In this document: positions 33,518 through 54,648 of the stretch, in pieces
Position numbering within the stretch: position 1 is the first letter of the stretch
How the letters are laid out: every line of letters starts with the position of its first letter
Source of the DNA: Spirochaetota bacterium
Lineage (GTDB): Bacteria > Spirochaetota > UBA4802 > UBA5550
DNA: 64,000 nucleotides
Assembly (NCBI GenBank): GCA_017999915.1
Contig: JAGNKX010000020.1
Location: 1-64,000, forward strand
Direction of reading: 5' to 3'
Program-made: the position numbers and the translations under genes
The notes under the pieces: model-generated
Seen by the model: the letters and a program-made list of their open reading frames with translations, nothing else
What the model was told of the DNA's origin: nothing
The model's database searches: none

Positions 33518-33914
33518 AATTACCTCCCTAAAATGTTTACGCGGAGAACTAAAATGTCTCTACGAACTATGCCCTCACTAGTAATATAGCAATAAACCAT
33601 CAGAAATCAAAAAAAATTATTCCATGTAAATTTTTTTCAATTTGTGAAAAATTGCCGTTAAATGGTCTCTTTTTCAAATTTATACAAGTTTATATTGGGG
33701 AAATATGGTATACTCTTAAATAGTATGCGAGGCATCGTGGCAGCAGTTTAGGCATCGTCCCTGGGCCGTGACCCGCATAATGATTGACAAAAAAAATCAG
33801 TACCTGTAGCCTGCTTTGATTTTTCATGAAATCCGTTGACTCATAGATCGCATTTCTGCAGAACGAACCGGACCGCTTGTGTGCGGCAACCGCTTTTCCC
33901 CTGGGAGTATCGCA
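33518..33914. other. intergenic region upstream of the APC permease
   Basis: About 400 bp, AT-rich in its first half. A TTGACA (33784-33789) with a 17-bp spacer is followed only by TAGCCT, a weak -10. I see no gene or clear RNA structure. Confidence 0.5.
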
Positions 33915-35924: not shown

Positions 35925-36002
35925 TGCGTCTCTGATGATCAATACACGGCGCACTTCATGAAAGATGTTTCGCCGCCGTGATCACTCCCAGGGGGGAATA
36001 TC

Positions 36003-37388
36003 ATGTCACAGAAAGCCATTGCCGGTAAAATTCTCAGGCTCAGGAAATTCTTCGAAAGCGGCGATACGAAAAACGTATCGTTCAGAAAGAAGCAGCTGCG
36101 CTTGCTCAGGAAGGCGATACGAAAAAACGAGGATGCCATCATGGACGCCCTCGCAAGGGATCTAAAAAAGCCCTTATTCGAGTCCTACGCCAGCGAGATC
36201 GGCATCCTTTATACGGAAATCCGCCATGTCCTCTGGCACCTCCGGTCATGGTCCCGGAAGCGCGCGGTGAAGACTCCCATCATTCATTTTTATTCGACCA
36301 GCGCGGTGCGCCAAGAGCCGTACGGCGTGGTCCTCATCATCGGCCCCTGGAACTACCCCTTCCAGCTGATCATCGCGCCGCTCATCGCCGCAATCGCGGC
36401 GGGCAACTGCGCCGTCATCAAGCCCTCGGAGCTTGCGCCGGCCACCTCACGCCTGGTGGCGAAGATCATACGCGAGACCTTCGGCGACAATTACATTACC
36501 GTGATCGAGGGCGGTATCGAGGAGACGGGGGCGCTGCTCAAGGAGAAGTTCGATTACATTTTCTTCACCGGCGGCACCGCGGTGGGGAGGATCATCATGC
36601 GCGCGGCCGCCGAGCAGCTGACGCCCCTGACCCTGGAGTTGGGCGGCAAGAGCCCGGCCATCGTGGACGAGGACGCCCATCTCCCGACTGCTGCGCGGCG
36701 CCTCTGCTGGGGAAAGTTCTTCAACGCCGGCCAGACCTGCCTGGCGCCGGACTACCTGCTGGTGCACAAAACGGTCAAGGCCGCCTTCGTCGCGGAGCTG
36801 AAGAAGACCATCGTCGAATTTTACGGGGACGATCCCCGGTCGAGCAAGGACTACGCGCGGATAGTCAACGAGAAGCACTTCGACCGCATCACGGGACTCC
36901 TTGACGGCGTGAAGGTGATACACGGCGGAGAGAGCGACCGCAAGAACCGCTTCATCGCCCCGACCCTGGTGGACGGCGTCACCCTGAAGGACCCTATCAT
37001 GCGCGAGGAGATATTCGGGCCCCTGCTGCCGATCATGTCCTTTGGAAAGCTCGATGACGCCATCGCCATTGTGAACAGATTGCCGCGGCCCCTGGCCCTC
37101 TATTATTTTTCGAAGAGCGTCAAAAAGCAGGAAAAGGTCCTCGGTGAAACATCCTCCGGCGGCGGCTGCATCAATGACACCGTGTCCCACGTGGGGAGCC
37201 AGGAGCTTCCCTTCGGGGGCATAGGCGACAGCGGCATGGGCCGGTACCACGGGAAATCGGGATTCGACACTTTTTCTCACCAGCGGGGGATCCTCACCCG
37301 GGACATTCTTGTCGATATGAAGCTTCGCTACCCGCCCTACAACAAGAAGGTGAGGCTGCTGAAGTTCCTGTTCAGGCTGATCGGTTAA
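36003..37388 (+). CDS. class 3 aldehyde dehydrogenase
   Basis: 461 residues, GGGGGGAATATC before the ATG. ALDH3-type: GPWNYPFQLIIAPLIAAIAAGNCAVIKPSE, FFTGGTAVGRIIMRAAA, general base Glu212 in LELGGKSP, and catalytic Cys246 in FNAGQTCLAPDYLLVH. The C-terminus LPFGGIGDSGMGRYHGKSGFDTFSHQRGIL is also class 3. It oxidises medium- or long-chain and aromatic aldehydes with NAD(P). Downstream of the permease by 78 bp; a symporter follows. The C-terminal LLKFLFRLIG tail is mildly hydrophobic, as in membrane-associated fatty aldehyde dehydrogenases. Confidence 0.93.
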   Translation: MSQKAIAGKILRLRKFFESGDTKNVSFRKKQLRLLRKAIRKNEDAIMDALARDLKKPLFESYASEIGILYTEIRHVLWHLRSWSRKRAVKTPIIHFYSTSAVRQEPYGVVLIIGPWNYPFQLIIAPLIAAIAAGNCAVIKPSELAPATSRLVAKIIRETFGDNYITVIEGGIEETGALLKEKFDYIFFTGGTAVGRIIMRAAAEQLTPLTLELGGKSPAIVDEDAHLPTAARRLCWGKFFNAGQTCLAPDYLLVHKTVKAAFVAELKKTIVEFYGDDPRSSKDYARIVNEKHFDRITGLLDGVKVIHGGESDRKNRFIAPTLVDGVTLKDPIMREEIFGPLLPIMSFGKLDDAIAIVNRLPRPLALYYFSKSVKKQEKVLGETSSGGGCINDTVSHVGSQELPFGGIGDSGMGRYHGKSGFDTFSHQRGILTRDILVDMKLRYPPYNKKVRLLKFLFRLIG

Positions 37389-37439
37389 GGCGGCCATCGG
37401 GGCCTCTCATGCCCGTTGACGCACACCATCGGGGGGATA

Positions 37440-39032
37440 ATGGCTCCTGTCAACTGGGTCATCGTCGCGGTCTACATCCTCGCCATCATGGGCATCGGCT
37501 ACCTGGCGGGGCGCTCACAGAAAAGCAGGGAGGACTATTTTCTCGGGGGGCGGAGGGTCTCTCCCTGGCTGGTGGCGTCATCCCTGCTGGCGAACCAGGT
37601 GAGCGCCATCAGCCTCGTGAGCGCGCCGGCCTTCATAGCGGCCAGGAGCGGCGGCGGGCTGAAGTGGCTGCAGTACGAGGTCGCCGTGCCCCTGGCCATG
37701 GTCTTTATCATGGTCTTCCTGGCGCCAGTGTTCCGCGCGGCGGACGGCATTTCCATCTACGAAATCCTTGAGAAGCGCTTTGGCCGGCCCACGCGGCTCG
37801 CACTTTCCCTGATCTTCATGATCAACCGCTCCCTGGGGGGCGGCGTGATCCTTCTGGCCACTTCCTACGTGACGGCGGTCCTCCTGAAAATGGATATCCA
37901 TTCGACAATTCTCCTGGTGGGCGTTGTGTCCATGACATACACCGCCATCGGCGGCATCCTGGCCGATATCTATTCCGACCTGATACAGCTCGTCGTACTA
38001 TGGGGGAGCTGCGTGGCCTGCATCGTCATCATCATCCAGCACCTCGGCGGTCCTGCCGGATTTCCCGCCTCTGAGGCAGGGCGGCTGCTGGTCTATAATA
38101 TTCACTCTTCCGGATTGGGGGACGGAGAGACATTTTCCTTCTGGCCCATGCTCTTCGGGGGATTCTTCCTCTATGTTTCCTATTACGGGTGCGACCAGAG
38201 CCAGGCCCAGCGTCTCCTGGCCACGAAGGACATGGCAGGCTCCTGGAAGGCCCTCCTGATAAACGGCATCGCGCGGTTCCCACTGGTCATTACCTACTGT
38301 TCCCTGGGGGCACTGATGATCATTTTCCTGGCGGGGAACCCTGAGTTTGCCGCGAGAATGAAAGGCCTTTCTCCCGATTACCTGATGCCGCTCTTTTTCA
38401 TGACCTATGTGCCGGATGGGCTCCTGGGCCTCATCGTGGTGGGGATCCTGGCCGCTTCCATGTCGAGCCTCGACTCCACCATCAATTCCCTGAGCGCCGT
38501 CACCTGGGAGGATTTTCTATTGAGAATATTTCCCGACCTGGGGAAACTCAAGGGACGCAGGATTGTGTGGCTCTCGCGCCTGATAACAATACTGTGGGGA
38601 ACAGCCTCCATTGCCTTTGCCCTGGCCATGGCGGAGCGGTCCGAAACCATCATCGAGCTTATCAACAAGATCGGATCGGCCCTGTACGGGCCAATCGCGG
38701 CGGTGTTCATCATTGGGATTTTTTCAAGAAGGATTGGCGGAGCCGGGGCGCTGGCTGGCCTGGCCTGCGGCATAGGAACTAATCTCATGCTATGGGTTTT
38801 TTTTGAGCGGCAGGTTTCCTGGATGTGGTGGAATGTTATCGGAGTCATGGCGACCGCCCTTGTCGGGATTGCTTCCGGGGTTTTCAGGAGCGATGGGGCC
38901 TCAACCGGGACCGTGATGTTCTCCGCCCTTGAGAGGAAGATTGTTATCCGCTATGGATCAATGCTTGTCGTCTGGTTTGTTGCTATTATCGTGTTCTGTG
39001 CCATATCGGAGCGGATTCTGGCTGTTTTCTGA
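37440..39032 (+). CDS. sodium:solute symporter (SSS family)
   Basis: 530 residues from ATG 37440; a TTG at 37416 is in frame but has no ribosome site. About thirteen helices. SSS markers: YLAGRSQKSREDYFLGGRRVSPWLVASSLLANQVSAISLVSAPAF (helix 1-2 with sodium-site residues), TYTAIGGILADIYSDLIQLVVLW, YYGCDQSQAQRLLATKDM and GILAASMSSLDSTINSLSAV (the helix 8 Ser/Thr motif). Substrate could be a sugar, organic acid or amino acid. It ends at a clear terminator. Confidence 0.92.
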   Translation: MAPVNWVIVAVYILAIMGIGYLAGRSQKSREDYFLGGRRVSPWLVASSLLANQVSAISLVSAPAFIAARSGGGLKWLQYEVAVPLAMVFIMVFLAPVFRAADGISIYEILEKRFGRPTRLALSLIFMINRSLGGGVILLATSYVTAVLLKMDIHSTILLVGVVSMTYTAIGGILADIYSDLIQLVVLWGSCVACIVIIIQHLGGPAGFPASEAGRLLVYNIHSSGLGDGETFSFWPMLFGGFFLYVSYYGCDQSQAQRLLATKDMAGSWKALLINGIARFPLVITYCSLGALMIIFLAGNPEFAARMKGLSPDYLMPLFFMTYVPDGLLGLIVVGILAASMSSLDSTINSLSAVTWEDFLLRIFPDLGKLKGRRIVWLSRLITILWGTASIAFALAMAERSETIIELINKIGSALYGPIAAVFIIGIFSRRIGGAGALAGLACGIGTNLMLWVFFERQVSWMWWNVIGVMATALVGIASGVFRSDGASTGTVMFSALERKIVIRYGSMLVVWFVAIIVFCAISERILAVF

Positions 39033-41808: not shown

Positions 41809-43302
41809 TTAAAACTTGAACGAGGGAAGCAGCTTCAGGGCTTCCTCGGCCTTTCCCTCGATTTTAAGCTTCCCCTGTATGAAGGCCATCTGCACTTTTT
41901 TCTTCTTTAAAAGAATGGCGCCCCATGTCCCCGCAGGCGCGGCCATGACGCAGACCGGGTTTTCCGGGATGGCCCCTTCGGTCACGACGGCTTTTCCATT
42001 CTTAATGATGAGGGAATAGCGCCTCTCGGGCTGGCCGCCGTCGGGGAGGAGCCGGATCCCGAAGGCCGTTTCCCAGCCTTCGACCGCGCCGGGATCGTAT
42101 CGTTCCGGAAGATCCATGACCAGGCTCCCTGCCTGGGCGGCGTACCGCGAATCTCCGCTCCCGATGCCAAGGCGTTCGAGGAGCCCCTTGCGGGGGGTCC
42201 TGGATTTAATATCCCTGCTGATCATGCGGCGGGTAAAGCGTCCGGGGAAACGGCTATCGAGCTCTTCGAGGTAAACCTCGCGGCGCAGGCGGTTCGATTT
42301 CTGAACTGCCAGGGAGAATTTCAGTATCTCCCGCCCCTCAACGGCCGAAAGGCTCGGCGCTTCCCTGCCCAGTATCGCCCCGATGAAGTTGCGCGTCGAT
42401 CCCTTGAAACCTTCGACCCAATCGTCGCCAGGCACCGCTATATCTTTCCATTTCCCGTTGAAATAGCTGATGGCCGGGCATTTCTTTATGTTCCCGGTGC
42501 AGCGATTGATCAGGATGATCCCCTGTGTGCCGGTTATCTCTATCCATTCGTCATTGGCATAATAATGTGAAGGGATCGCAAGGTCCGGTTCGTGGCAGTA
42601 TTCGCACATCCCGAAGGCGGCCGTATCACGGTATTTCCACATGATCGCGGCAGGGCTGTCCACGACGCCGTCCAGGGATTCGATCCAGGCGGTGACACGC
42701 TCGGCCGCGCCCATGAGGAACCACGCCGTGGCCCAGAGGTGGTGACCGTGGTCGAAGGTCTGGAGCCCGCGTCCCTCCTGGGCTTCGCGCACCCGCCATT
42801 CCCACGCTGACGGCGGTATTAGCCATCCGCCGGTGCCGCTGATGAGCTTTATGCGGATGTTGGTGGGCGTCCCGATCTGCCCTTCGGCGATCATGCGCTT
42901 TGCAGCAACGATGGGCGGATAGAAAACGTAGTTGTCCGACACCTTGAGCACTTTGCCCGCGGCTTTCGCGGCGCTGATCATCCGGTCGGCGCTCTCCAGG
43001 GTGTTGGCCATCGGCTTCTGGACCGCCACATGCTTGCCGGCCCTGAGGGCCTGGATCGTCATCTCCTCGTGGAACATCGTCGGGGTGAGTATCTCAACGG
43101 CGTCGATGGCCGGGTCCGCCAGCATATCCTCGTAACACGTGTAATGCTTTTTCACGGCCCATTCCTTTTTTCTGCGAAGGGCGGTTCCCTCGTCGGTGTC
43201 GCACACCGCGAGGAGTACCGCGTCGCGGTTTTTCACATAACCGGGAAAATGCACATCGGCGATCCTTCCCGCACCGGCGAATCCCACCCGTATTTTTTTC
43301 AT
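41809..43302 (-). CDS. Gfo/Idh/MocA oxidoreductase fused to a C-terminal SCP2-like domain
   Basis: 497 residues from ATG 43302 (GGAG 8 nt upstream); the frame continues upstream but into unrelated codons. Residues 1-120 are the NAD(P)-binding Rossmann domain (RVGFAGAGRIADVHF, HVAVQKPMANT). About 125-380 is the Gfo/Idh C-terminal sheet, with ISGTGGWL and QTFDHGHHLW supplying the usual Asp/His positions. Residues about 395-497 form an SCP2-type domain (YSLIIKNGKAVVTEG...KKVQMAFIQGKLKIEGKAEEALKLLPSF), which normally binds lipids or CoA esters. Sugar or cyclitol oxidation is the family's usual work. It is last in the six-gene operon, 31 bp after the ThDP enzyme. Confidence 0.85.
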   Translation of the reverse strand: MKKIRVGFAGAGRIADVHFPGYVKNRDAVLLAVCDTDEGTALRRKKEWAVKKHYTCYEDMLADPAIDAVEILTPTMFHEEMTIQALRAGKHVAVQKPMANTLESADRMISAAKAAGKVLKVSDNYVFYPPIVAAKRMIAEGQIGTPTNIRIKLISGTGGWLIPPSAWEWRVREAQEGRGLQTFDHGHHLWATAWFLMGAAERVTAWIESLDGVVDSPAAIMWKYRDTAAFGMCEYCHEPDLAIPSHYYANDEWIEITGTQGIILINRCTGNIKKCPAISYFNGKWKDIAVPGDDWVEGFKGSTRNFIGAILGREAPSLSAVEGREILKFSLAVQKSNRLRREVYLEELDSRFPGRFTRRMISRDIKSRTPRKGLLERLGIGSGDSRYAAQAGSLVMDLPERYDPGAVEGWETAFGIRLLPDGGQPERRYSLIIKNGKAVVTEGAIPENPVCVMAAPAGTWGAILLKKKKVQMAFIQGKLKIEGKAEEALKLLPSFKF

Positions 43303-43333
43303 ATCCGTGACTCCATTGGCGTTATTTAACCGA

Positions 43334-45205
43334 TTACAGGCCGATGCGGTGATGCTCGGCCTGCACCCGTTCGCACCAGTTGCCGACGTTCCAGTCGCCG
43401 AAGACGCCCATGCCCGAAAGCTCGTTGGGCCCCGCGTACACCGGCACGTGGACCACCGAGAGGCCGCGGTGCGAGGCCGCTTCGGCGAGGGCCGCGCGGA
43501 GAGCGGCGACGGTGTCGCCGCCGTATATCCCCCGGACGCCGCCGACCGCGCTCGCCATGGCGGCGTAGTCCACGGCAACGGCGTCGCTGGTGCGGTATTC
43601 GCTCCCGTACTGTGCCAGCTGGAGGCCGGTGATGGCCGCCATCCGGCGGTTGTCGAATATCACGATACAGCCGCGGGCGCCGTGCTGGGAAGCGTCGATG
43701 AGGATCTGCGGGTTCATCATGAAGCTGCCGTCGCCGCAGAAGGCGACCGGATAGACGTCGCAGAGGGCCGAGAGGAAGACCGCGGAAGACGCGAACCCCA
43801 TGTAGGAGGAGCCGGTGTCGGTCATGGTCATGCCCTCGCGCTCGTCCTCGACGATCTGGAATCCGTTGGCCTGCACGTCGCCGGCGTCGAAGAGCTTGAG
43901 TGCGCCCATCGCGTCAGCGTGTTCGCACACGGTTTTGATGGCGACCGGCTGGGTGAGTATCTCTTTTTTCCAGACCTCGTCGTACAGGGGCGGGCATTCA
44001 TAGCGGGCCTTCTTGAAGCGCTCCCACTCGGCGCGTTTTGAAAAAAGCTCGCTGGCCCATTGGGACGAGCCGTCCCGCTGCACGCGACCGAGGCCCTTCA
44101 GGCGCTCGATCCAGAGACGCAGGTTCGTTTTGGCGTCACCGATTATGCTCACCGACCTGTTGTAGTGCCCGGCGTGGAGCGGCTCGGTGTTGAAGTTGAT
44201 TACGGATCGGGCGTTCCTCCATGCCGTGCCCGAAGAGTCCCACTGGCACACGGCGCGGGCGCCGATGATGACGGCGAGGTCGGCCTCGTTCATCGCGAAA
44301 TTCCCCGACAGGGACCCCTTGGAGCCGCCCACTGTCATGTGGCGCGGCTCGGAGTAGGGGACGATGCCGCTGGCGTTGGGACCGGCCACGATGGCCGCGT
44401 CGAGGAGCCTCGCGAGCTCGGTTATTTCGGCGCCGCAGCCCCTGGCTCCCTGGCCGATCTTGATGGTGACGCGCCGCCCGTGTTCCGCAGCTTCCGAGGC
44501 GCGCCGGAACAAGTCTTCGTCCGCGCAGGCCAACCGCTGCGGCGCCGGGGCCTCAGGAAGCTCGAGTATATTGAAGCTCTTCATTAACACAGGCTGGACG
44601 TTCATTGGCGCGAGGAGGAAAAAGGGACGGCCGAAACCGGGGTTCCCGGTCGCCGCTGCTCCCCTGCGGAGGGCAGCGACTACGCTCCAGGGCTCGAAGA
44701 GGGAGTAGGCGTCACCCATGACGCCGCAGAGCCTGAGGAAGAGTCCCTGCTCCTCCCTGGGCACCTGCTGCATGTTGAAGCCCTCGCCGTGGGTCGTCTC
44801 GTCGCCGTAGATGTGGTATACGCCGGCGCCGTTGGAGGCGGCGCAGAGGGAGCCCGCGAAGGCGTGGAGGGCTCCGGGCCCGATGGAGGTGATGACCGCG
44901 GCGGTTTCGCCGGTGCGCAGTTTCAGTGCCGTGGCGGCGTGGGACGCGGCTGTCTCGTGGCGGAAGTTGAAGGTGCGCACGACTCCCTCCGCTTCGTACA
45001 CGCGAAGAACCTCGGCGATGTCAGTGCTCCCGTGGCCGAATATGGCGCAGTACCGGGTGACGCCCTGGCGGTGCAGGCCGAGGACGATCGCCTCGGAAAC
45101 GCTGATGTCAGCGAATTGGCTCATGGCGCCGGCCTTCACCGCGGCGTCTATCGTGCCGTAACGGGCGAGGGCGCGGGCCCGTTCGATGCGTGCGGATATC
45201 TCCAT
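43334..45205 (-). CDS. ThDP-dependent enzyme resembling IolD (trihydroxycyclohexanedione hydrolase)
   Basis: 623 residues, close to IolD (about 640). The N-terminal PYR domain has FGHG (56-59), which IolD also has, and the catalytic Glu84 in FRHETAASHAA. ITSIGPGALHAFAGSLCAASN parallels IolD's STSVGPGA segment. The central domain spans about 220-400. The PP domain carries the ThDP-Mg motif CGDGSFMMNP (Gly491-Asp492-Gly493-Ser494) and FDNRRMAAITGLQ, with EYRTSDAVAVDYAAMASAVGG as in IolD. IolD hydrolyses the C-C bond of a cyclic diketone in inositol breakdown. Here iolB, iolC, iolE and iolJ are absent, so the substrate probably differs. It starts 10 bp after the RpiB-like gene. Confidence 0.8.
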   Translation of the reverse strand: MEISARIERARALARYGTIDAAVKAGAMSQFADISVSEAIVLGLHRQGVTRYCAIFGHGSTDIAEVLRVYEAEGVVRTFNFRHETAASHAATALKLRTGETAAVITSIGPGALHAFAGSLCAASNGAGVYHIYGDETTHGEGFNMQQVPREEQGLFLRLCGVMGDAYSLFEPWSVVAALRRGAAATGNPGFGRPFFLLAPMNVQPVLMKSFNILELPEAPAPQRLACADEDLFRRASEAAEHGRRVTIKIGQGARGCGAEITELARLLDAAIVAGPNASGIVPYSEPRHMTVGGSKGSLSGNFAMNEADLAVIIGARAVCQWDSSGTAWRNARSVINFNTEPLHAGHYNRSVSIIGDAKTNLRLWIERLKGLGRVQRDGSSQWASELFSKRAEWERFKKARYECPPLYDEVWKKEILTQPVAIKTVCEHADAMGALKLFDAGDVQANGFQIVEDEREGMTMTDTGSSYMGFASSAVFLSALCDVYPVAFCGDGSFMMNPQILIDASQHGARGCIVIFDNRRMAAITGLQLAQYGSEYRTSDAVAVDYAAMASAVGGVRGIYGGDTVAALRAALAEAASHRGLSVVHVPVYAGPNELSGMGVFGDWNVGNWCERVQAEHHRIGL

Positions 45206-45214
45206 GGGTCCTCC

Positions 45215-45844
45215 TTATTTCAACCGTGAGCTAATGGCGTCCCTGAGGGCGGCATCGGCCAGGGTGTCGAGACCGATGGTTTCCATGACGCCGGGAAATT
45301 CCAGCACCGGCCGGATGACCGCTTCGTCGATGCCGGCCACGATCTCAGGAAAGGGCCGGTGCGCCGTCTTTGATACGGCGGCGAGCAGGGCCCTGCTTTT
45401 TTTCTGGGATTCGCTCCGGTGCGCCGGGTATCCGGCCCCGAATTCAACGCTGAAGAGCCGGTCGAAGATGAAACGGAGATTCACGTCCCCGGCCCATCCG
45501 TATCCGTACAGGAGGGGAAGGGAGATGCAGTTGCCCCCGTTGATCTGGCCGAAGAGCCAGGCGTCAGGGCCGCTTGCGATGAGGCCGCAGAATACGCCCG
45601 GATACTGGGAAGCCGATATCAGGAAGCCCTCGCCGGTGCCGCAGCCGCCCACGACGAGATCGGCCCGGCCCGCGTTAAGGAGCAGGGCGGCCAGGAAGCC
45701 GGTGTTGATATAGGTGAGCTCCGGCTTCTGGTCCGCCGATTTCATGGCGGCGTTGATTATCCTGTGGCCCCGCCCCTCCAGGGCCGCCACGATGGCGGGG
45801 TTTTGCGCCACGGCGCTGATTTCATTTACGACTGCGATGTTCAT
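45215..45844 (-). CDS. RpiB/LacA/LacB-like sugar isomerase
   Basis: 209 residues, longer than RpiB (about 150) because of a C-terminal helical extension. The N-terminal half matches the fold: MNIAVVNEISAV..., VVGGCGTGEGFLISASQYPGVFCGLI, in which Cys68 of GCGTG corresponds to the catalytic cysteine of RpiB. INGGNCISLPLLYGYGWAGDVNLRFIFDRLF parallels the anion-binding N.ANvL.lG segment but is diverged, so the substrate may be unphosphorylated. It lies 22 bp after the BKACE gene in the operon. Confidence 0.8.
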   Translation of the reverse strand: MNIAVVNEISAVAQNPAIVAALEGRGHRIINAAMKSADQKPELTYINTGFLAALLLNAGRADLVVGGCGTGEGFLISASQYPGVFCGLIASGPDAWLFGQINGGNCISLPLLYGYGWAGDVNLRFIFDRLFSVEFGAGYPAHRSESQKKSRALLAAVSKTAHRPFPEIVAGIDEAVIRPVLEFPGVMETIGLDTLADAALRDAISSRLK

Positions 45845-45866
45845 GGCTGTTTTCCTTATAGTATAA

Positions 45867-46703
45867 TTAACGCTTCAAGCCGAGGATGGCCCGCGCTTCA
45901 TCGGGTGTCGCGATGTCGCGGCCGATCTCCCTCGATATTTTTACAAGCCTTTCGACGAACTGCGCGTTGCCTGACGCCGGCTCACCCTTCCGGAAATAGA
46001 CGTTATCCTCGAGCCCTACCCGCGCGTGGCCGCCGGTCAGGATGGCCATCACGTTCATTCCCATCTGCCACCGGCCGATGCCGGTGACGTTGAATACCGA
46101 CCCTTCCGGCAGGTGCCCGATCATGGTGATCAGATTTTTCGGCGTACCCTTGTATCCGCCCATGCCGTCGACGCCCATGACGCAGTTGATGTAGTACGGC
46201 TTCGCCAGCAGGTTCTTCGCGATAAGGTTTTCGACTTCGCCGAACATCGACGGGTTGTACACCTCCATCTCCGGCTTGATTCCGCGCTTGAGCATCTCCG
46301 CTGCGAAGGCCTCGATCTCCGGCCTGTGGTTCATGAACGGCAGCTCCGCCTTTTCCTTCCCGGTGAAGAACACGATGGATCCCATGTTGAGCGATCCCAT
46401 CTCCGGGGCAGCGTCCAGGCCTGAAAGGCGCTCCTTGATGGGGATGCCGGGCCCGCCGGTCGTGTTCTGTATGACGACGGGGCAACGGGCCCGGATGCCG
46501 CTGTTTATCTCCGAGAATATCGCCGGGTCGCCCACGCCTTTGCCCTGCCGGTCGCGCGCGTGAAGGTGCACGATGGCGGCGCCGGCGTTATAGCAGGCCA
46601 CGGCGTCTTTGATTATCTCGTCAGGCTGCTCCGGAAGGGCCGGGTTGGCCTCCTTGCCGTGTATGCCGCCGGTCAGGGCGGCCGTTATGATCAGTTTTTC
46701 CAT
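45867..46703 (-). CDS. beta-keto acid cleavage enzyme (BKACE, DUF849)
   Basis: 278 residues, AGGAGGAA before ATG 46703. The zinc ligands are visible: His46 and His48 in AAIVHLHARD and Glu232 in the signature GGHARVGLEDN. NTTGGPG binds the substrate carboxylate in the family. BKACEs take a beta-keto acid plus acetyl-CoA to acetoacetate plus the shortened acyl-CoA; the founding member is the 3-keto-5-aminohexanoate cleavage enzyme Kce. Side-chain specificity cannot be read here. Its start overlaps the end of the acyl-CoA synthetase gene by 13 bp, so the two are translationally coupled. Confidence 0.92.
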   Translation of the reverse strand: MEKLIITAALTGGIHGKEANPALPEQPDEIIKDAVACYNAGAAIVHLHARDRQGKGVGDPAIFSEINSGIRARCPVVIQNTTGGPGIPIKERLSGLDAAPEMGSLNMGSIVFFTGKEKAELPFMNHRPEIEAFAAEMLKRGIKPEMEVYNPSMFGEVENLIAKNLLAKPYYINCVMGVDGMGGYKGTPKNLITMIGHLPEGSVFNVTGIGRWQMGMNVMAILTGGHARVGLEDNVYFRKGEPASGNAQFVERLVKISREIGRDIATPDEARAILGLKR

Positions 46704-48841
46704 GGCAGAGGGTTCCTCCTGGATTTTCTGACGGCTCCCCAGCGCACCAGGGCCCGGGCCGCCGCCACCCACTCGATCACGGAATCGTACAGGGGAACGC
46801 CCGCCCTGTTGAGGCGCCCGCGCATGAGCTCCGTGTAGGGACCGCCGGCGGCGCAGCAGACGATCGGCTTTGCCCGGGCGGAGCTCAGGGAGGCGAGGAC
46901 GTCCACGATAGTCTCGTCGAGGGGCGAATTCTGAAAAACGAAAAAAGGCATGATGATGTCGACGTTATCGTCGCCGGCCAGGGTTTCCAAGACGAGCCGG
47001 TAATCGGCGGCTGTGGCCGAGCCGGTGACGTCAACGGGATTTTCCACCAGGTAAAAGAAGCTGAATCGGCTGCGCATCCGGTCCACCGAGGCCCGGGAGA
47101 GCTTCACCAGCTCGATGCCGCTGTCGGGAAAGAGGTCGATGGCGTTCACCATCGGACCGGCCCCGTTTGATACGAGGGCGGCGCGGTTGCCGCGGGCGGC
47201 CGGCTGAAGAGACAGGGCCTCGCAGGCGGCGAAGCATTCATGGAAGCTGTCGGTCAGGACTGCCCCCGCGGTCCCGAGGGCGCCCCTGTAGACGTGATAG
47301 GTGCCGCCGTAGGCGCCGGTGTGGGACACCGACGCCCGCGCCGAAACCGGGTTCCTGCCGGTCTTGAACACAACCACCGGCTTGTCCCGGGCGACAGATT
47401 CCCTGACCGCTGCGAGGAATTTATTTCCGTCGGAGAGCCCCTCGATGTAGCTGCCGATCACCGACGTGTCGGGATCACCGGCGAGGAAGGAAATGAGGTC
47501 TCCCTCATCGACGTCGGCGCGGTTACCGTAGCTTACCATCTTGGCGATGCCGGTGCGGCAGGCCTTTTCAAGGAAGGCGCAGCCCCAGGTCCCGCTCTGG
47601 GTGATGAAGCTCACGGCTCCCCGGGGCGGGCGCTCCAGCCGTTCTTTCGGATAGAAGAAGGAATCAAAGCGGCTCGCGCCGTCGAAGCATCCGATGCAGT
47701 TGGGCCCGATGATCCTCACGTCGTGCTCCCGGGCCAGGGAGCGGATTTCCTCTTCGAGCTTCGCGCGGCCTCCGCCCAGTTCCCGCCCGCCCCCGGAAAT
47801 GACGATGGCGTTATGGCAGCCCAGGGCGGCCATGGCGCGGATGACATCGGGAAGCATGGCCAGGTCGACGATGACAATGACCAGGTCCGGAGCCGCGGGG
47901 AGCGCGTCAAGGGACGGATAGCAGGTCATCCCGAGGATCTCCCGCGCGTTGGGATTGACGGGATATATGGTCCTCTCGCCCGGCGCGGACGTCAGCGAGT
48001 CAAGGATGATGTTGCCGATCTTTCCCGGCGTCGCCGAAGCTCCCAGGACGGCGATGCTCTTCGGCCTGAAAAAATTCTCCAGGTGGCCGGTCCTGATCGT
48101 TCCCCCGGCGGCGCTGTGAGGGTCACGGCCCCGGCGGAGGACCATTTTCGCGTCAACGACGACGCAGCCGTCGGGCCGCGCGATGACCGGATTGAAATCG
48201 ACCGATTCATACCAGTGAGCGGCGTCCGCGCCGAACCGGCCGATGGCGCCGATTGTACCGGCAAGGGCCTTCATGTCGATCCGTTCGGATCCCCTGAAGC
48301 CGGCCAGGAGGGGACGGGCTTTCAGCTCATCTATCATGGCGGTGATGTCTTTCTTTGAAACGGGGAGGGGGCGAAAGGATACATCTTTGAATAAATCCGT
48401 ATAGACGCCGCCCAGTCCTATCATCATGACCGGGCCGAATACCTCGTCGTGCTGGAGGCCGACGATCATCTCAACACCGGGCGGGCATTGCTCTTCCACG
48501 AGTATCCCCGCGTACCCGGCGACTTTTTTCTTTTTAAAGATAGTGTCCATTGCGGCGAATTCCGATTTCAGGCGGGACGCGCTTTCGACGCCGAGGCGGA
48601 CGCCGCCCAGCTCTGTCTTGTGGAGCACCATGTCGGAGACCAGTTTCATGGCGTAGGGTGGCCGAACGGTTTTGCTGAAGCGGACAGCCTCACCCGGAGA
48701 GAGGCAGAGACGGCCGGAGGGGACCGGTATTCCGTACTGGCGGAGCATATCCTTCATCACCGGCTCGGGAAGTATGACGCTTCCGGCCGAGAGAGATTCC
48801 CCGCATATATTATCCAATGCCTGCCTGGCGCTGTTATTCAT
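46691..48841 (-). CDS. ADP-forming acyl-CoA synthetase, fused beta-alpha
   Basis: 716 residues from ATG 48841, 8 bp after the cupin stop. The order is permuted: the ATP-grasp (beta) part comes first (about 10-235: MKDMLRQYGIPVPSGRL, ILVEEQCPPGVEMIVGLQHDEVFGPVMMIGLGGVYTDLFKDVSFRPLP), then the CoA-binding and ligase (alpha) part (HLENFFRPKSIAVLGASATPGKIGN, IIGPNCIGCFD, TQSGTWG). The phospho-histidine is His507 in SHTGAYGG. It interconverts acyl-CoA + ADP + Pi and acid + CoA + ATP. Next to the BKACE it could recover ATP from the acyl-CoA that enzyme releases. Confidence 0.9.
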   Translation of the reverse strand: MNNSARQALDNICGESLSAGSVILPEPVMKDMLRQYGIPVPSGRLCLSPGEAVRFSKTVRPPYAMKLVSDMVLHKTELGGVRLGVESASRLKSEFAAMDTIFKKKKVAGYAGILVEEQCPPGVEMIVGLQHDEVFGPVMMIGLGGVYTDLFKDVSFRPLPVSKKDITAMIDELKARPLLAGFRGSERIDMKALAGTIGAIGRFGADAAHWYESVDFNPVIARPDGCVVVDAKMVLRRGRDPHSAAGGTIRTGHLENFFRPKSIAVLGASATPGKIGNIILDSLTSAPGERTIYPVNPNAREILGMTCYPSLDALPAAPDLVIVIVDLAMLPDVIRAMAALGCHNAIVISGGGRELGGGRAKLEEEIRSLAREHDVRIIGPNCIGCFDGASRFDSFFYPKERLERPPRGAVSFITQSGTWGCAFLEKACRTGIAKMVSYGNRADVDEGDLISFLAGDPDTSVIGSYIEGLSDGNKFLAAVRESVARDKPVVVFKTGRNPVSARASVSHTGAYGGTYHVYRGALGTAGAVLTDSFHECFAACEALSLQPAARGNRAALVSNGAGPMVNAIDLFPDSGIELVKLSRASVDRMRSRFSFFYLVENPVDVTGSATAADYRLVLETLAGDDNVDIIMPFFVFQNSPLDETIVDVLASLSSARAKPIVCCAAGGPYTELMRGRLNRAGVPLYDSVIEWVAAARALVRWGAVRKSRRNPLPWKN

Positions 48842-48848
48842 TGGCTGC

Positions 48849-49244
48849 TCACTTTTTTTTCCGGGCGTCTTCAATGTTCTGCCTGATGTAATCGGTTGAA
48901 ATGGCCGGGACGAATACGCATGCTATCTGCAGTGGTTCCGAACCGGTGTTCATGGTTTTATGAAGGACCCCGGGAGGAGCGTACATGGCGACGCCCGGTT
49001 TAAGATCATGCTCGACGCCGTCAAGCCATGCCTTTCCATTGCCTGACATGAAAATCATGAGTTCCCCCGCTTCAGCGTGGGTATGAAAATCAGTGCAGCC
49101 GCCGTTGGGGGCCAGGGTGGAAAGAAGGAACGTGAAGCCCTTTACAGACGGGTCGATGTCGGGAGAGAGGAGGAATTTTATTTCCCGTTCAAAGGGCCTA
49201 TCAATTTTTGATCCATTGATTTCGGAAAAATCGATAAAGGGCAT
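48849..49244 (-). CDS. cupin-domain protein
   Basis: 131 residues, AGGGAGGTTATC before the ATG. A single cupin barrel with the metal-binding motifs DFHTHAEAGELMIFMSGNGKAWLDG and AMYAPPGVLHKTMN (His-X-His, Glu, His). Such proteins are isomerases, dioxygenases or small-molecule sensors; none is indicated specifically. It is the first gene of the six-gene operon, divergent from iclR. Confidence 0.88.
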   Translation of the reverse strand: MPFIDFSEINGSKIDRPFEREIKFLLSPDIDPSVKGFTFLLSTLAPNGGCTDFHTHAEAGELMIFMSGNGKAWLDGVEHDLKPGVAMYAPPGVLHKTMNTGSEPLQIACVFVPAISTDYIRQNIEDARKKK

Positions 49245-49276: not shown

Positions 49277-49308
49277 AATATACAATATTATTGCATAATT
49301 TGCAATAA
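49277..49308 (-). promoter_or_regulatory. promoter of the six-gene operon with overlapping palindrome
   Basis: On the - strand, TTGCAA (49305-49300), 17 bp, TATATT (49282-49277), giving a 5' end near 49270 and a short leader to the cupin. A dyad TTATTGCA-N5-TGCAATAA (49288-49308) covers the -35. An IclR-type dimer bound there could repress or position polymerase. The 158-bp divergent region is otherwise very AT-rich. Confidence 0.68.
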
Positions 49309-49402: not shown

Positions 49403-50173
49403 ATGGCAAATAATACAATACAATCCCTTGACCGGGGCCTGAAGATTCTAACCATCCTTGGCTCGTCCGATCAGCCCCTATCGCTAAATGAAATTGCGGG
49501 CCATTTTACCATCGACCGCTCATCGGTATTCAGGCTGATATCAACCCTTGTGCGAAATAATTTTGTACAGCAGGACGCGGAAACCAAGAAATACACCCTC
49601 GGTTTCAGGTTCATGGAGCTTGCCGGTTCATTCAACGAACAGGCAAAAATCGAAAGCGTCATCAGGCCGATCATATCGCGCATATGCGCCGCCACGAAAC
49701 AGAACACCCACCTGGCCGTTCTCGAAGGCGCCGACGTGGTGTTTCTCGCCGTGGAGCAGCCCCGTGAGAGCATCAGCGTTAACATCGCGGTGGGAACCCG
49801 TGAGCCTGCGATTGCCACGGCCCTCGGCAAGGCCATTCTGTCCTTTCGAGATGGCGAAAGCCTGTCGACTCTCCTCGATGGCGCCGATTTGCGGCCATAC
49901 ACGGAGCGGTCCATCCTCTCGAAAGAAACCCTGCTCGATGAACTTGCCAGGGCGAGGAAAGAACGGATAGCCTTTGACCGGGAGGAATACAAAAGCGGCA
50001 TCGTGTGCATCGCGGCGCCAGTCGTCAATTATCGCGGCGAAGCCCTGTATTCGATCGGCATATCGGGGCCGTCCGGTTTGATGATGCCGCGCATCGATGA
50101 TTTTGCCCGGATCGTCCGGGACGCGGGGATCGAAGCTTCTTCGAAATACGGATACACCGGCGGCATGGAATAA
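49403..50173 (+). CDS. IclR-family transcriptional regulator
   Basis: 256 residues. Winged helix-turn-helix at about 5-70 (SLDRGLKILTILGSSDQPLSLNEIAGHFTIDRSSVFRLISTLVRNNFVQQD) and an IclR effector domain (NTHLAVLEGADVVFLA, VGTREPAIATALGKAIL, DREEYKSGIVCIAAPVVN, YSIGISGPSG). No ribosome site precedes the ATG; TATAAT ends 4 bp upstream, so the message may be leaderless. It is divergent from the six-gene operon, which it probably controls with a pathway metabolite as effector. Confidence 0.92.
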   Translation: MANNTIQSLDRGLKILTILGSSDQPLSLNEIAGHFTIDRSSVFRLISTLVRNNFVQQDAETKKYTLGFRFMELAGSFNEQAKIESVIRPIISRICAATKQNTHLAVLEGADVVFLAVEQPRESISVNIAVGTREPAIATALGKAILSFRDGESLSTLLDGADLRPYTERSILSKETLLDELARARKERIAFDREEYKSGIVCIAAPVVNYRGEALYSIGISGPSGLMMPRIDDFARIVRDAGIEASSKYGYTGGME

Positions 50174-50194: not shown

Positions 50195-51931
50195 TTATTT
50201 TGGAAGATTGGTTTGTAATAGTGAGTTGACTTCCGCGATCTCTTCAATGCCGTACTTCGATTCGCGCTGGAAGGTGAGGAGGCCGTTCTGTTCTCCCTCC
50301 ACGTCGTAGGCCTGGGTCAGGCAGTAGCCGGCGATTGCCGGGTATTCCTTCATGATTCGCAGATTGTCCTCGAAGCTTTCCAGTATACTTTTTTCGGTTT
50401 TATAGAATCCGGCGCCGCCGAATTCGCTCACCATGAAGGGTTCGAAGCTCCGGTAGGTCCCGCCTGCAAGATAGGGCTTGCGCGCCACCCGGTGGGTCAG
50501 AACAAGGTAGGCTATGGCGCGGGGGATACTGAAAAAGCGCATAGTCATTTTCTTTGGGTTCCCCAGGCTTTCGTAGAGCTTTCGGATCTTTGTTTCATCT
50601 GAAAGATAATGATGGATATCGACGATGTCTGTCATGATATGGTCGTATCCGGAATTGTCCACCACGAGGAGATTGGGATATCGTTCCCTCACGCGGCGGT
50701 AGAGGTCTCGTATATATTTTTTTCTCCCGCGGCTCCAAAGGAGGTCGGCGATGCCCCAGGTCTCGTTGAAGAGCACCGCGGCCATTACCGAGGGATGACT
50801 GCAGTCCCGGTCGAGGACGTCCCATAGCTCGTTTTCAAATTGCTTTTCCTCTACGATGCTGAAGAGGAACGGCGAGGGCATCTCGATCCATGCCAGGAGG
50901 CCGTGGCGGTCGCAAAGGTTGAGAAAGCGCGGGTCCTCGATCTTCTGGTGGATCCTGATGCCGTTGAATCCCATGGCCTTGATGAGCAGAATGTCCCGTT
51001 CATATCCTTCCAGGCCATTAACAGGCGTGTAATGCCCCGCCGGATAGTAGCCCTGCACCAGGAGCATCTTGAGACAAAGCGGATCGCCGTTCAGGAAGAT
51101 CTTTCCCTCCCTGGCTTCGATGCTGCGAAGGCCGACGAATGTGACAACACGGTCGCTGATTCCGTCGCCGTCATGGAGCGATACCGTCACGGTATAAAGA
51201 GATGGATTGTCCACTGACCAGAGGCGGGGTTCCTTTATGGTGAGTGATATGGCGCTGTCCCGGGCGGGGTCCGCAATGTCTGCTCCTGCCGTGGCGGTCC
51301 CGTCCGGACCAGCGGCCTCTATGACCAGGCGGGCGCCATGGTCGATGGTCCATGAAATAGAAATGGTATCCGTGTTGGTGGATATCATGATCTTTTCAAT
51401 GCTGGAATTCCCCGTGGCGTGGATATAGACCGGCTGCCAGATGCCGCTCACCGGCGTGTAGAAGATGGGGCTCATTTTTTTCCATACATATTGTTTCCCC
51501 CGGAGGGTTCTGCGCGACCGGGGATCTAGGACTTTTACAACGAGGCGATTGTTATCCGCGATATGATCAGTTATCTCGAAGGTGAAGGATGTATAGCCTC
51601 CTCGGTGGGATCCGAGGAACGCTCCGTTCAGCCAGACCATTGCTTCGTAATCCACGGCGCCGAAAGTGAGGAAAAAGCGCTTGCCCGGGGGCAGGTCCAG
51701 GCGGCGGAAGCTTCTGGCGTACCATGAGACCGGTGGCGGGTCCTTTATGCCGATTCCGCTTGCCTCGCTTTCGATGCAGTAAGGGACGGTGATAGAGCCG
51801 CCCAGGGTTTCCCGGAGGAGAATCTTATCGCTGTCCGCTCCATCAGCCCCGAACTCGAACTCCCATGTTCCGTCAAGGGAAAGCCAATGGTCGCGGGCCA
51901 TGTCAGGCCGCGGGTGGTGTTTATCTGGCAT
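50195..51931 (-). CDS. GH2 glycoside hydrolase (beta-glucuronidase/galactosidase type)
   Basis: 578 residues from ATG 51931, which has GGAGG upstream and overlaps the GH127 end by 11 bp. Three-domain GH2 layout: sugar-binding (LSLDGTWEFEFG, SWYARSFRRLDLPPGKRFFLTFGAVDYEAMVWLNGAFLGSHRGGYTSFTFEI), immunoglobulin-like (PRLWSVDNPSLYTVTV), and TIM barrel. The acid/base is Glu390 in LFNETWG and the nucleophile Glu503 in MVSEFGG. The beta-type hydrolysed (glucuronide, galactoside, mannoside) is unresolved. It faces iclR tail to tail. Confidence 0.9.
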   Translation of the reverse strand: MPDKHHPRPDMARDHWLSLDGTWEFEFGADGADSDKILLRETLGGSITVPYCIESEASGIGIKDPPPVSWYARSFRRLDLPPGKRFFLTFGAVDYEAMVWLNGAFLGSHRGGYTSFTFEITDHIADNNRLVVKVLDPRSRRTLRGKQYVWKKMSPIFYTPVSGIWQPVYIHATGNSSIEKIMISTNTDTISISWTIDHGARLVIEAAGPDGTATAGADIADPARDSAISLTIKEPRLWSVDNPSLYTVTVSLHDGDGISDRVVTFVGLRSIEAREGKIFLNGDPLCLKMLLVQGYYPAGHYTPVNGLEGYERDILLIKAMGFNGIRIHQKIEDPRFLNLCDRHGLLAWIEMPSPFLFSIVEEKQFENELWDVLDRDCSHPSVMAAVLFNETWGIADLLWSRGRKKYIRDLYRRVRERYPNLLVVDNSGYDHIMTDIVDIHHYLSDETKIRKLYESLGNPKKMTMRFFSIPRAIAYLVLTHRVARKPYLAGGTYRSFEPFMVSEFGGAGFYKTEKSILESFEDNLRIMKEYPAIAGYCLTQAYDVEGEQNGLLTFQRESKYGIEEIAEVNSLLQTNLPK

Positions 51932-53942
51932 CGCCTGTAACCTCCTGCACCCACACCTCCATGTTGGATAGACCCCGGTTGGCCCAGCAGAAGTAGGGGA
52001 TGAAGGTGAGAGGATTCCCTGCCGGGTCCGAACCTTCAAGGACCCAGGTACCGCCGAAGTGCTTTTCTGAAAAACGCGGCTTTAGTTCTTTAGTTATATC
52101 AATAGCCGCTCCCGGAATTTTTGTGGCCGGATTATCAATGCTTTCAAGACAGTAAACCAGGGGGCCCCGGGACAGGGCGATCTTCCCCCGGTTCGATTTG
52201 ACCTTGCGATGTGACCGGTGAATCGCGATGGCCATGGGGAAAGAGATTTCGATTGTGGAATTCTTATCCCAATTTCTTTTTATGGAAATATACCATGAAT
52301 GATAGGGAAAATATCCTGAGGCTGAGACAATTTCAGGCCTTGGGGGGATAACTATCTTCTCCTGATTGTCGTTGATCATAATAGAAGGATTTCCGGACCA
52401 TGAGGGAATGCGGAGATGTAATGTGAATTCATCAGGATTGTCGATCTCAATTTTAATCGATACGGGGCCTTCCCAGGGCAGTTTAGAGTCGATTATGATC
52501 TGTGCTGCCGCCGGGAAACCGTCCTGGGGATCGATCTCTGCTTTGTTGTCGAAGTACTGGTGCACCCAAATATTGCTGTTGTTAATTGAATAAATATATT
52601 TGCCCAAAGAAGCCCAGGTACGGGACACATTGCTCGGACAGCAGGCGGTGGCATACCAGGGCCTGCGTTTCTGCCCTTCCGATTCAAGGGGATTGCGGTA
52701 CAGGTAGGAGCGGCCGTCAAGGGCTATGCCCGCGGAGGCGGCGTTGTAGAGCTGCCATTCGATAAGGTCCGCATAGCGGGCCTCACCGGTGGCCATGAGC
52801 ATTTCATGGCTCCAGAAAATGCTTGCCAGGGCTGCGCAGGTTTCGCAGTAGGCGTAGCGATTGTCCAGCTCGTAATCCCTGCCGAAACCTTCAATGACCG
52901 GAAGGGACCCTATGCCGCCGGTGACGTACATGCGGCGTTGGACCATGCGGTCCCATGCCGCCGTCAGGGTCCCGATGATCGACCGGTCGCCGGTTTCCCG
53001 GAAGAGCATCGCCATGGCGGTGGCAAGGTATCCCCATCGGACCGCATGCCCCTCGGGAATGCGCTGCTTCCTGATGGGGCGATGCTGCTGGAAGAATTTT
53101 CCGGTGAGAAAGGACCAGTGGGCCCGCAACTTCAGGAAGGGCGGCTCCGTTGCCGTAAGGTTCTCCGTGAAATCAAATCCAGCCGGTGTTGATGCCCTGC
53201 CGTTGATTTCATTTTCCTGCTTCCTGATAAAGCCCGCGCGCCGGGATTGGCTCAGGAACTGTCCTATCAGCCGCAGGCCGAAAAAGCTCGTCCTGCCGCG
53301 CTGTTCCAGAAAATGACGGGCCGTTTCAAGATATTTTTTTTCTCCCGTTGCGCGATAGAGACGTATCAGGGCGATCTCGACCTCTTCATGACCCGGCGTC
53401 ATGGCGGCCCCTGCGCTGGTGAAATCGCTTACTACCAGGTCCGCCGCTTTACACGCTATTTCCATGAGGTTATTCCCACCGGTTGCATTCCCATGTGCTA
53501 TGCCTGCTTCAATCAGGTGGCCATGGGTGTAGAGCTCGTGTTCTATTTGCAGATTTTTCCAACGGTCTTCGGGGAAATGGAACTGGTTATAGGTGAACAA
53601 GTAGCCGTCTTCTGCCTGGGCACCGCGGATGATGTCAATGTATTCATCAAGGAGTTTCTTAAGACGATGATGGGGGCCTTCATCCAGAATTATAGCGGCA
53701 GCTTCGGCCCACTTGTGAACATCGGAGTCATTGTAGAAAAAGCCTTTACGGAATCCCTGCCTTGTCCCGGCAACAATGCGGAAATTGTCAATGCGCCCTG
53801 TCTGCTCCAGCTGGTCCCACTGGTAGAGTATGGCATTGTTCCGGTTCATGGCGCACCGGCTTCCCCAGAATCCGCCCGTGACCTTCACCTTTGAAAGGGG
53901 CAGTTCTTTCATGCGATCATAGGTTGAAGGAGTGTGAGGCAT
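51921..53942 (-). CDS. GH127 beta-L-arabinofuranosidase family protein
   Basis: 673 residues, AAGGAGGTCCCA before the ATG. DUF1680/GH127: VKVTGGFWGSR at the start, DSDVHKWAEAAAIIL, QIEHELYTHGHLIEA, TPGHEEVEIALIRLYRATG, then the active-site region YCETCAALASIFWSHEMLMATGEARYADLIEWQLYNAASAGIALDG, and YATACCPSNVSRTWASLGKYIYS. The Cys residues and Glu of these segments bind zinc and act as nucleophile and ligand in the family. No signal peptide, so the substrate is imported. It forms a translationally coupled pair with the GH2 enzyme. Confidence 0.92.
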   Translation of the reverse strand: MPHTPSTYDRMKELPLSKVKVTGGFWGSRCAMNRNNAILYQWDQLEQTGRIDNFRIVAGTRQGFRKGFFYNDSDVHKWAEAAAIILDEGPHHRLKKLLDEYIDIIRGAQAEDGYLFTYNQFHFPEDRWKNLQIEHELYTHGHLIEAGIAHGNATGGNNLMEIACKAADLVVSDFTSAGAAMTPGHEEVEIALIRLYRATGEKKYLETARHFLEQRGRTSFFGLRLIGQFLSQSRRAGFIRKQENEINGRASTPAGFDFTENLTATEPPFLKLRAHWSFLTGKFFQQHRPIRKQRIPEGHAVRWGYLATAMAMLFRETGDRSIIGTLTAAWDRMVQRRMYVTGGIGSLPVIEGFGRDYELDNRYAYCETCAALASIFWSHEMLMATGEARYADLIEWQLYNAASAGIALDGRSYLYRNPLESEGQKRRPWYATACCPSNVSRTWASLGKYIYSINNSNIWVHQYFDNKAEIDPQDGFPAAAQIIIDSKLPWEGPVSIKIEIDNPDEFTLHLRIPSWSGNPSIMINDNQEKIVIPPRPEIVSASGYFPYHSWYISIKRNWDKNSTIEISFPMAIAIHRSHRKVKSNRGKIALSRGPLVYCLESIDNPATKIPGAAIDITKELKPRFSEKHFGGTWVLEGSDPAGNPLTFIPYFCWANRGLSNMEVWVQEVTGDAR

Positions 53943-54549: not shown

Positions 54550-54648
54550 TTTTTATATTACTGCTTGAAATGTATTGCAATTTTAATCGGTCGGTGATAA
54601 CATGCAATTTACAATTTGTACCTAACAAGCGATCCAGGGAGGTTGTTC

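Follow-up and report, generated by a model that had tools for sequence, protein, structure and literature searches.

The operon analysed here lies on the minus strand, at positions 41809-49244 of a 64,000-nucleotide stretch of contig JAGNKX010000020.1 (assembly GCA_017999915.1) from a Spirochaetota bacterium; this whole stretch is hereafter called the window. It encodes a cupin, an ADP-forming acyl-CoA ligase, a beta-keto acid cleavage enzyme (BKACE), an RpiB/DhuI-like isomerase, a thiamine diphosphate (ThDP) enzyme and a Gfo/Idh dehydrogenase fused to an SCP2 domain (Gfo-SCP2). We tentatively propose, at somewhat less than even confidence, that it is an IclR-controlled catabolic operon whose enzymes break down a sugar- or cyclitol-like compound, yielding acetoacetate, ATP and a small acid.

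Described systems related to the operon

In the deoxyribonate pathway of Pseudomonas simiae, a BKACE has been proposed to convert 2-deoxy-3-keto-ribonate into acetoacetate and glyceryl-CoA, and a thiolase route via the same carbon skeleton has been proposed in Klebsiella (PMC6365646). BKACE and thiolase versions are also found among the relatives of the window operon, where one thiolase-type ending (L024 and L025, tail (d) below) resembles the Klebsiella cluster (PMC6365646). The P. simiae pathway, however, contains no ThDP enzyme, RpiB-like isomerase or cupin, and has no enzyme assigned to the step at which the ADP-forming ligase of the window could recover ATP. No deoxyribonate dehydrogenase of the short-chain dehydrogenase/reductase (SDR) type was detected by Pfam among the genes of the window operon.

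The myo-inositol pathway (IolG-E-D-B-C-J) shares with the operon a Gfo/Idh dehydrogenase, a ThDP enzyme with common motifs and the role of an aldehyde isomerase, but the operon has a BKACE and a ligase instead of a kinase or aldolase. A search of the whole genome gave no match to the iolE family or to the IolB/KduI family, which bears out the absence of iolE and iolB noted in a preliminary description of the locus made from the sequence alone. The classical myo-inositol pathway is therefore ruled out, the ThDP protein also falling outside the IolD clade.

The sulfo-transketolase (sulfo-TK) pathway of sulfoquinovose degradation (PMC11659671, PMC12890257) resembles the transketolase-type relatives of the operon by its split transketolase and isomerase, and one of these relatives (L012) has an acylating aldehyde dehydrogenase near the sulfoacetaldehyde type. 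In addition, the Spirochaete variant of sulfo-TK gains ATP via an ADP-forming ligase. In contrast, sulfo-TK lacks the ThDP enzyme, Gfo and BKACE, and no sulfoquinovose isomerase was seen in the loci studied here. The split transketolase is absent from the window operon and from every BKACE-type locus. Finally, DhuI of the DhuI-DhuD module is a member of the RpiB family; it has a deoxy-uronic aldehyde as its substrate for isomerisation and the same function as KduI, which belongs to the KduI/IolB family (PMC12838403). The RpiB-like protein of the window may act on a similar aldehyde, but the operon has no DhuD-type reductase and its downstream genes differ from those of the module.

Gene content and conservation of the operon

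The six genes of the operon and the divergent regulator are the following.

48849-49244, minus strand: small cupin of 131 aa, with which the operon starts (Pfam Cupin_2, 7e-14)
46691-48841 (ATG start) or to 48874 (TTG start), minus strand: ADP-forming acyl-CoA ligase (ATP-grasp_5, CoA_binding_2 and Succ_CoA_lig)
45867-46703, minus strand: BKACE (PF05853, 309 bits)
45215-45844, minus strand: RpiB/DhuI-like aldose-ketose isomerase (Pfam LacAB_rpiB; PRK09273 above cut-off)
43334-45205, minus strand: ThDP enzyme of an uncharacterised clade, first labelled IolD-like (Pfam TPP_enzyme N, M and C)
41809-43302, minus strand: Gfo/Idh dehydrogenase fused to a C-terminal SCP2 domain (Pfam GFO_IDH_MocA and SCP2)
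49403-50173, plus strand: IclR-family regulator, divergent (Pfam IclR), its position kept in related loci

From the cupin to Gfo-SCP2, the genes are separated by 7, -13, 22, 9 and 31 bp (assuming the ligase ATG at 48841). The positions of the open reading frames thus agree with the six leftward genes, the divergent IclR and the spacings of -13 to +31 bp given in the preliminary description, whose view of a single catabolic operon is borne out.

The ThDP protein was used to search GTDB contigs, giving 80 loci, and 393 genomes of the phylum, of which 18 contained matches. The genes for BKACE, the RpiB-like protein and the ThDP enzyme are clustered, with their order unchanged, in 12 distinct Spirochaetota genomes (the window, L004, L006, L008, L010, L098, L100, L101, L102, L103, L104 and L106; L008 and L099 are one contig and were counted once). 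The co-occurrence that the preliminary description had suggested looking for in other genomes is thereby found. Identity to the window proteins is about 47-75% across the related loci, except for the neighbour L004 (94%), and gene order is maintained across this considerable divergence. The ligase and the cupin are each present in 10 of the 12 genomes; in L006 and L104 the contig ends before the position of the cupin.

Regulation and transport

Two further features connect the operon with a regulon and with an uptake system.

49278-49308, minus strand: operator-like site TTATTGCAAATTATGCAATAATATTGTATAT in the IclR-cupin intergenic region, a motif recurring in other genomes
54616-55995, plus strand: transporter of the GPH type (MFS_2) that probably serves the pathway for uptake, with homologues adjoining ThDP or Gfo-SCP2 genes elsewhere

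The operator motif TGCAATAATATTGTATAT is found without mismatch ahead of the cupin (window positions 49278-49295), whereas a mean of 0.02 matches is expected in shuffled sequences with up to 2 mismatches allowed. With up to 3 mismatches, it is present upstream of the cupin in ten distinct genomes. A near match also lies directly 5' of the Gfo-SCP2 gene in at least five loci where this gene is detached from the operon (L008, L098, L101, L102 and L106), which links Gfo-SCP2 to the operon independently of adjacency. The same-order core in 12 genomes and the operator ahead of the operon argue that the gene set is not due to chance. Together with the divergent regulator, this putative IclR-type operator suggests that the operon is under IclR control in the reading proposed here. 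In L008, an inverted repeat with 18-bp arms (TAGGTTTTCCCGCCCGCC...) is located between IclR and the operator (5470-5850).

The GPH transporter of the window is 61-65% identical to transporters located beside the ThDP gene (L006 and L098) and behind Gfo-SCP2 (L071), and for this reason it probably belongs to the pathway. A GPH transporter directly follows Gfo-SCP2 in L101, L102 and L108.

The ThDP protein forms a separate clade

The ThDP protein scores 108.7 bits against the IolD model TIGR04377, below the equivalog cut-off of 715. A tree built from 36 ThDP proteins places the 23 members sampled from its family on one side of a branch with a support of 98/96 and the annotated IolD proteins in a clade of their own (100/100), the family being apart from both IolD and acetolactate synthase; some rows are long-branched, so that the deeper branching order is unsure. 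The GHG, SIGPG and QQ motifs match IolD and not IlvG; GHG and SIGPG are also present in a ThDP protein of Haloarcula. The Glu that activates ThDP is invariant in the family. With the AlphaFold2 model, which is confident (predicted local distance difference test, pLDDT, 90.3), Foldseek gives similar scores for many ThDP folds at 18-21% identity and does not separate acetohydroxyacid synthase, pyruvate oxidase and cyclohexane-1,2-dione hydrolase. As judged from the model score and the tree, the protein is a member of a separate ThDP clade that is neither canonical IolD nor acetolactate synthase. The family names of the preliminary description were all recovered by Pfam, but because of the low score and the separate clade its label IolD-like is only partly right, and an assignment to IolD itself does not hold. 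Acetolactate synthase, a grouping that it had named as counting against its interpretation, is ruled out by the tree and the motifs.

A second, distantly related ThDP clade occurs in L096 (Aminobacter pUSP3) and L113 (an Antarctobacter plasmid), in clusters with an aldehyde dehydrogenase (ALDH), a cupin, NAD(P)-dependent oxidoreductases and IclR. L096 has in addition a Gfo and a sugar-phosphate-isomerase TIM barrel, and L113 a type II 3-dehydroquinate dehydratase.

The other enzymes of the operon

BKACE matches PF05853 over residues 3-276 (309 bits for a cut-off of 24.8). The alignment with 2y7d indicates that the HLH (H-x-H), R and ED positions are kept, which we take to be the metal-binding residues and the catalytic Arg, Glu and Asp of Kce. 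The position of Kce Glu14 is occupied by Ile, so that the Kce substrate is unlikely for this protein. The 3-keto-5-aminohexanoate cleavage enzyme (KCE) of lysine fermentation was rejected as an identity; two further BKACE genes of the genome share 35-37% identity with it and carry different N-terminal fusions (G000:C5:11732-12571 and G000:C2:1816-2655), the C5 copy being about 3 kb from a CoA-transferase pair.

The ligase gives a full-length match to 9y43, with its ATP-grasp, CoA-binding and ligase domains in the order of 3-hydroxypropionate-CoA ligase, and scores 814 bits with the 3-hydroxypropionate--CoA ligase model, below the equivalog cut-off of 1300. It thus appears closest to 3-hydroxypropionate-CoA ligase, which suits a small hydroxyacyl-CoA. 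The best matches of the RpiB-like protein in the Protein Data Bank are 3c5y and 4u8e (gbs1892, which we take to be DhuI), and the catalytic motif GCGTG is conserved. In Gfo-SCP2, the QKP and D-x3-H residues, presumably the catalytic Lys, Asp and His of the family, are conserved; among its structural matches, TM_0414 ranks first, ahead of scyllo-inositol dehydrogenase and inositol dehydrogenases.

Alternative tails downstream of the ThDP enzyme

Four sets of genes, here called tails, accompany the ThDP family.

Tail (a): ALDH resembling succinate semialdehyde dehydrogenase (SSADH) and IlvD/EDD dehydratase, in Alphaproteobacteria, SAR324 and one Spirochaete (L107)
Tail (b): RpiB-like protein and a split or fused transketolase, found in gut Clostridia, Actinomycetota, Chloroflexota (L043), Victivallales (L012) and some Spirochaetes
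Tail (c): RpiB-like protein, cupin, BKACE and ADP-forming ligase, as in the window
Tail (d): RpiB-like protein, AMP ligase, CoA-transferase, SDR and thiolase, in gut Clostridia (L024 and L025); in L023, the RpiB-like gene occurs with thiolase and 3-hydroxyacyl-CoA dehydrogenase genes some kilobases off

The acylating ALDH near the sulfoacetaldehyde type is carried by both L012 (553.7 bits for a cut-off of 600) and L043. The cupin is limited to tail (c) loci and L009. RpiB and IlvD never occur in one locus (0/33 versus 36/63), and the nominal Fisher p of 1.6e-9, or 4e-7 when restricted to the 58 loci flanked by 5 kb or more on either side, overstates the evidence because the counts include one duplicate record and related genomes. 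In L071 (SAR324), a Gfo-SCP2 of the window type (47%) and the GPH transporter (65%) are found, yet ALDH and IlvD/EDD replace RpiB, BKACE and ligase; tails (a) and (c) therefore probably use one aldehyde. We infer that the four tails are alternative fates of a single ThDP product, an aldehyde. Since ALDH and IlvD/EDD replace RpiB where the ThDP gene is kept, the RpiB step most likely follows the ThDP step.

Upstream, other members of the family are associated with Gfo and CUT1 ABC transporters, a CUT1 binding protein lying next to the Gfo-type clusters L067 and L089, or with a zinc-dependent alcohol dehydrogenase (Zn-ADH), whose third-best match is IolM (206 bits), together with a molybdoenzyme of the xanthine dehydrogenase type and TTT or DASS transporters. 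The Zn-ADH and molybdoenzyme accompany the ThDP family in L022, L024, L034 and related loci of gut Clostridia, and in L081 and L091. Culturable carriers of the ThDP family include Anaerotruncus colihominis (L022), Xanthobacter autotrophicus DSM 432 (L079) and Phaeobacter piscinae, where the cluster is on a plasmid (L091). The Zn-ADH of Anaerotruncus (L022) is 73% identical to that of Phaeobacter (L091), which suggests that the upstream module has been transferred as a whole between Roseobacters and gut Clostridia.

Proposed pathway

In the route that we propose, the GPH transporter would take up a sugar- or cyclitol-like compound, of which Gfo-SCP2 would oxidise one hydroxyl to a ketone with NAD+. 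The ThDP enzyme would then cut the C-C bond beside the carbonyl, giving an aldehydo acid OHC-CHOH-(CHOH)n-CH2-COOH. The RpiB/DhuI-like isomerase would convert the terminal aldehyde into a ketose and the cupin would shift the keto group once more, to the 3-position. With acetyl-CoA, BKACE would cleave the resulting 2-deoxy-3-keto-aldonate into acetoacetate and a hydroxyacyl-CoA, from which the ADP-forming ligase would release the free acid with formation of ATP. With n = 1 (C5), the products would be glyceryl-CoA and then glycerate. The BKACE step and the ATP recovery, already put forward in the preliminary description, are chemically coherent; to the cupin and the transporter, which it had left without a role, keto-isomerase and uptake functions are now assigned as proposals.

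The chain length is suggested by the tails. ALDH followed by IlvD/EDD would require OHC-CHOH-CHOH-Y, RpiB followed by transketolase would require HOCH2-CO-CHOH-Y, and cleavage by BKACE or thiolase would require CH2-COOH beside a carbonyl. We propose Y = CH2COOH (C5) because it meets the needs of all tails. This C5 intermediate would end in 2-oxoglutarate in tail (a); in tail (b) it would give xylulose-5-P and malonate semialdehyde, the carboxylate analogue of sulfoacetaldehyde; in tail (c) a single keto shift would provide 2-deoxy-3-keto-pentonate for BKACE. Two other candidates were rejected: malic semialdehyde (C4) as common intermediate fits BKACE but cannot feed transketolase, and a hexuronate without CH2 yields no normal BKACE or thiolase substrate. 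A cyclitol origin of the aldehyde is possible. The genome contains four CoA-transferase pairs and one candidate glycerate kinase of the GckA type, so that acetoacetate and glycerate could be used; no GarK-type glycerate kinase was found in the genome.

Several points weigh against this route. No common natural compound was found that obviously yields the C5 aldehyde, and should the ThDP enzyme hydrolyse a ring in the manner of IolD, C6 would be a more natural chain length for its product than C5. The keto-isomerase role of the cupin is a guess from its family, its position and its restricted occurrence. The ligase gene was not seen in the stretches of L098 and L101. Moreover, the 12 BKACE-type genomes represent three families of one Spirochaetota order, and their conservation is therefore not independent.

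Alternative explanations

The main rival, not favoured but to be taken seriously, is a cyclitol pathway in which an inositol isomer or deoxy-inositol would be converted to a 1,2-dione and hydrolysed by an IolD-type ThDP reaction to 5-deoxyhexuronate. The RpiB-like protein would replace IolB, and a C6 chain would reach BKACE (giving tetronyl-CoA), transketolase (giving malic semialdehyde) or the other tails. The three motifs common to the ThDP protein and canonical IolD, the TM_0414 and inositol dehydrogenase matches of Gfo-SCP2 and the resemblance of the Zn-ADH to IolM are consistent with this scheme, but the genome has no IolE-family gene and the ThDP protein forms a separate clade on a long branch. 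In addition, a 5-keto C6 acid would need two keto shifts ahead of BKACE, and the ALDH and IlvD/EDD tail would need an aldolase, which is absent from those clusters. The order of the preliminary description, in which RpiB-like isomerisation is the earlier step and the beta-keto acid used by BKACE arises directly when the ThDP enzyme hydrolyses a cyclic dione, is compatible with the gene content, and gene order gives no argument against it. This order is nevertheless improbable, since in Alphaproteobacteria and L071 the ThDP enzyme works without RpiB, together with ALDH and IlvD/EDD, and RpiB is not needed upstream; the comparison across phyla places the RpiB-like step after the ThDP step.

An unlikely explanation, though slightly less so than this early isomerisation, is that the ThDP enzyme is a 2-oxo-acid decarboxylase forming the aldehyde from a C6 2-oxo-diacid by loss of CO2. 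The C5 aldehyde would be obtained directly, the fold resembles that of many decarboxylases, and carboxylate-type transporters (TTT, DASS) lie beside the ThDP gene in Alphaproteobacteria and gut Clostridia; the active-site motifs are, however, nearer to IolD than to acetolactate synthase, and the Spirochaetota carry a sugar-type transporter. The relationship of the RpiB-like protein to gbs1892/4u8e would suit an operon for the known DhuI substrate 4-deoxy-5-hexosulose uronate (DHU), derived from pectin or glycosaminoglycans, but this is highly improbable: the operon contains no KduD/DhuD-type reductase, kinase or aldolase, and BKACE and the ligase would be left without a role.

Neighbouring genes

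Two glycosidase genes, candidate feeder enzymes, are located between the regulator and the transporter.

50195-51928, minus strand: GH2-family glycosidase
51921-53942, minus strand: GH127-family glycosidase (best NCBIfam match aceric acid hydrolase, 388 of 950 bits)

Both are present in the window and L004 only, and so may or may not feed the pathway. Downstream of the operon (33879-39032), rightward genes encode an amino-acid-type permease, an aldehyde dehydrogenase and a sodium:solute symporter, partly kept in L004.

Distribution and significance

The operon would represent a new pathway put together from enzyme families that are all known. In the open-licence literature, we found no description of the gene set or of the ThDP clade, including IolD in association with BKACE, which is weak evidence of novelty, nor of beta-keto acid cleavage in connection with inositol. 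More speculatively, and with less assurance than for the operon itself, the ThDP family may define a widespread modular pathway, present in at least eight phyla, that converts a sugar- or cyclitol-like compound to a C5 2-deoxy-uronic aldehyde with four non-homologous endings. If so, one ThDP enzyme would open the route in gut Clostridia (including Anaerotruncus colihominis), marine Alphaproteobacteria and anaerobic Spirochaetota, and a single catabolic route would have four interchangeable endings. The DhuI-like isomerase would have a likely role beyond the breakdown of unsaturated uronates, and BKACE would be coupled to ATP recovery. The ThDP clade, now often annotated merely as thiamine pyrophosphate-dependent enzyme, would gain a function.

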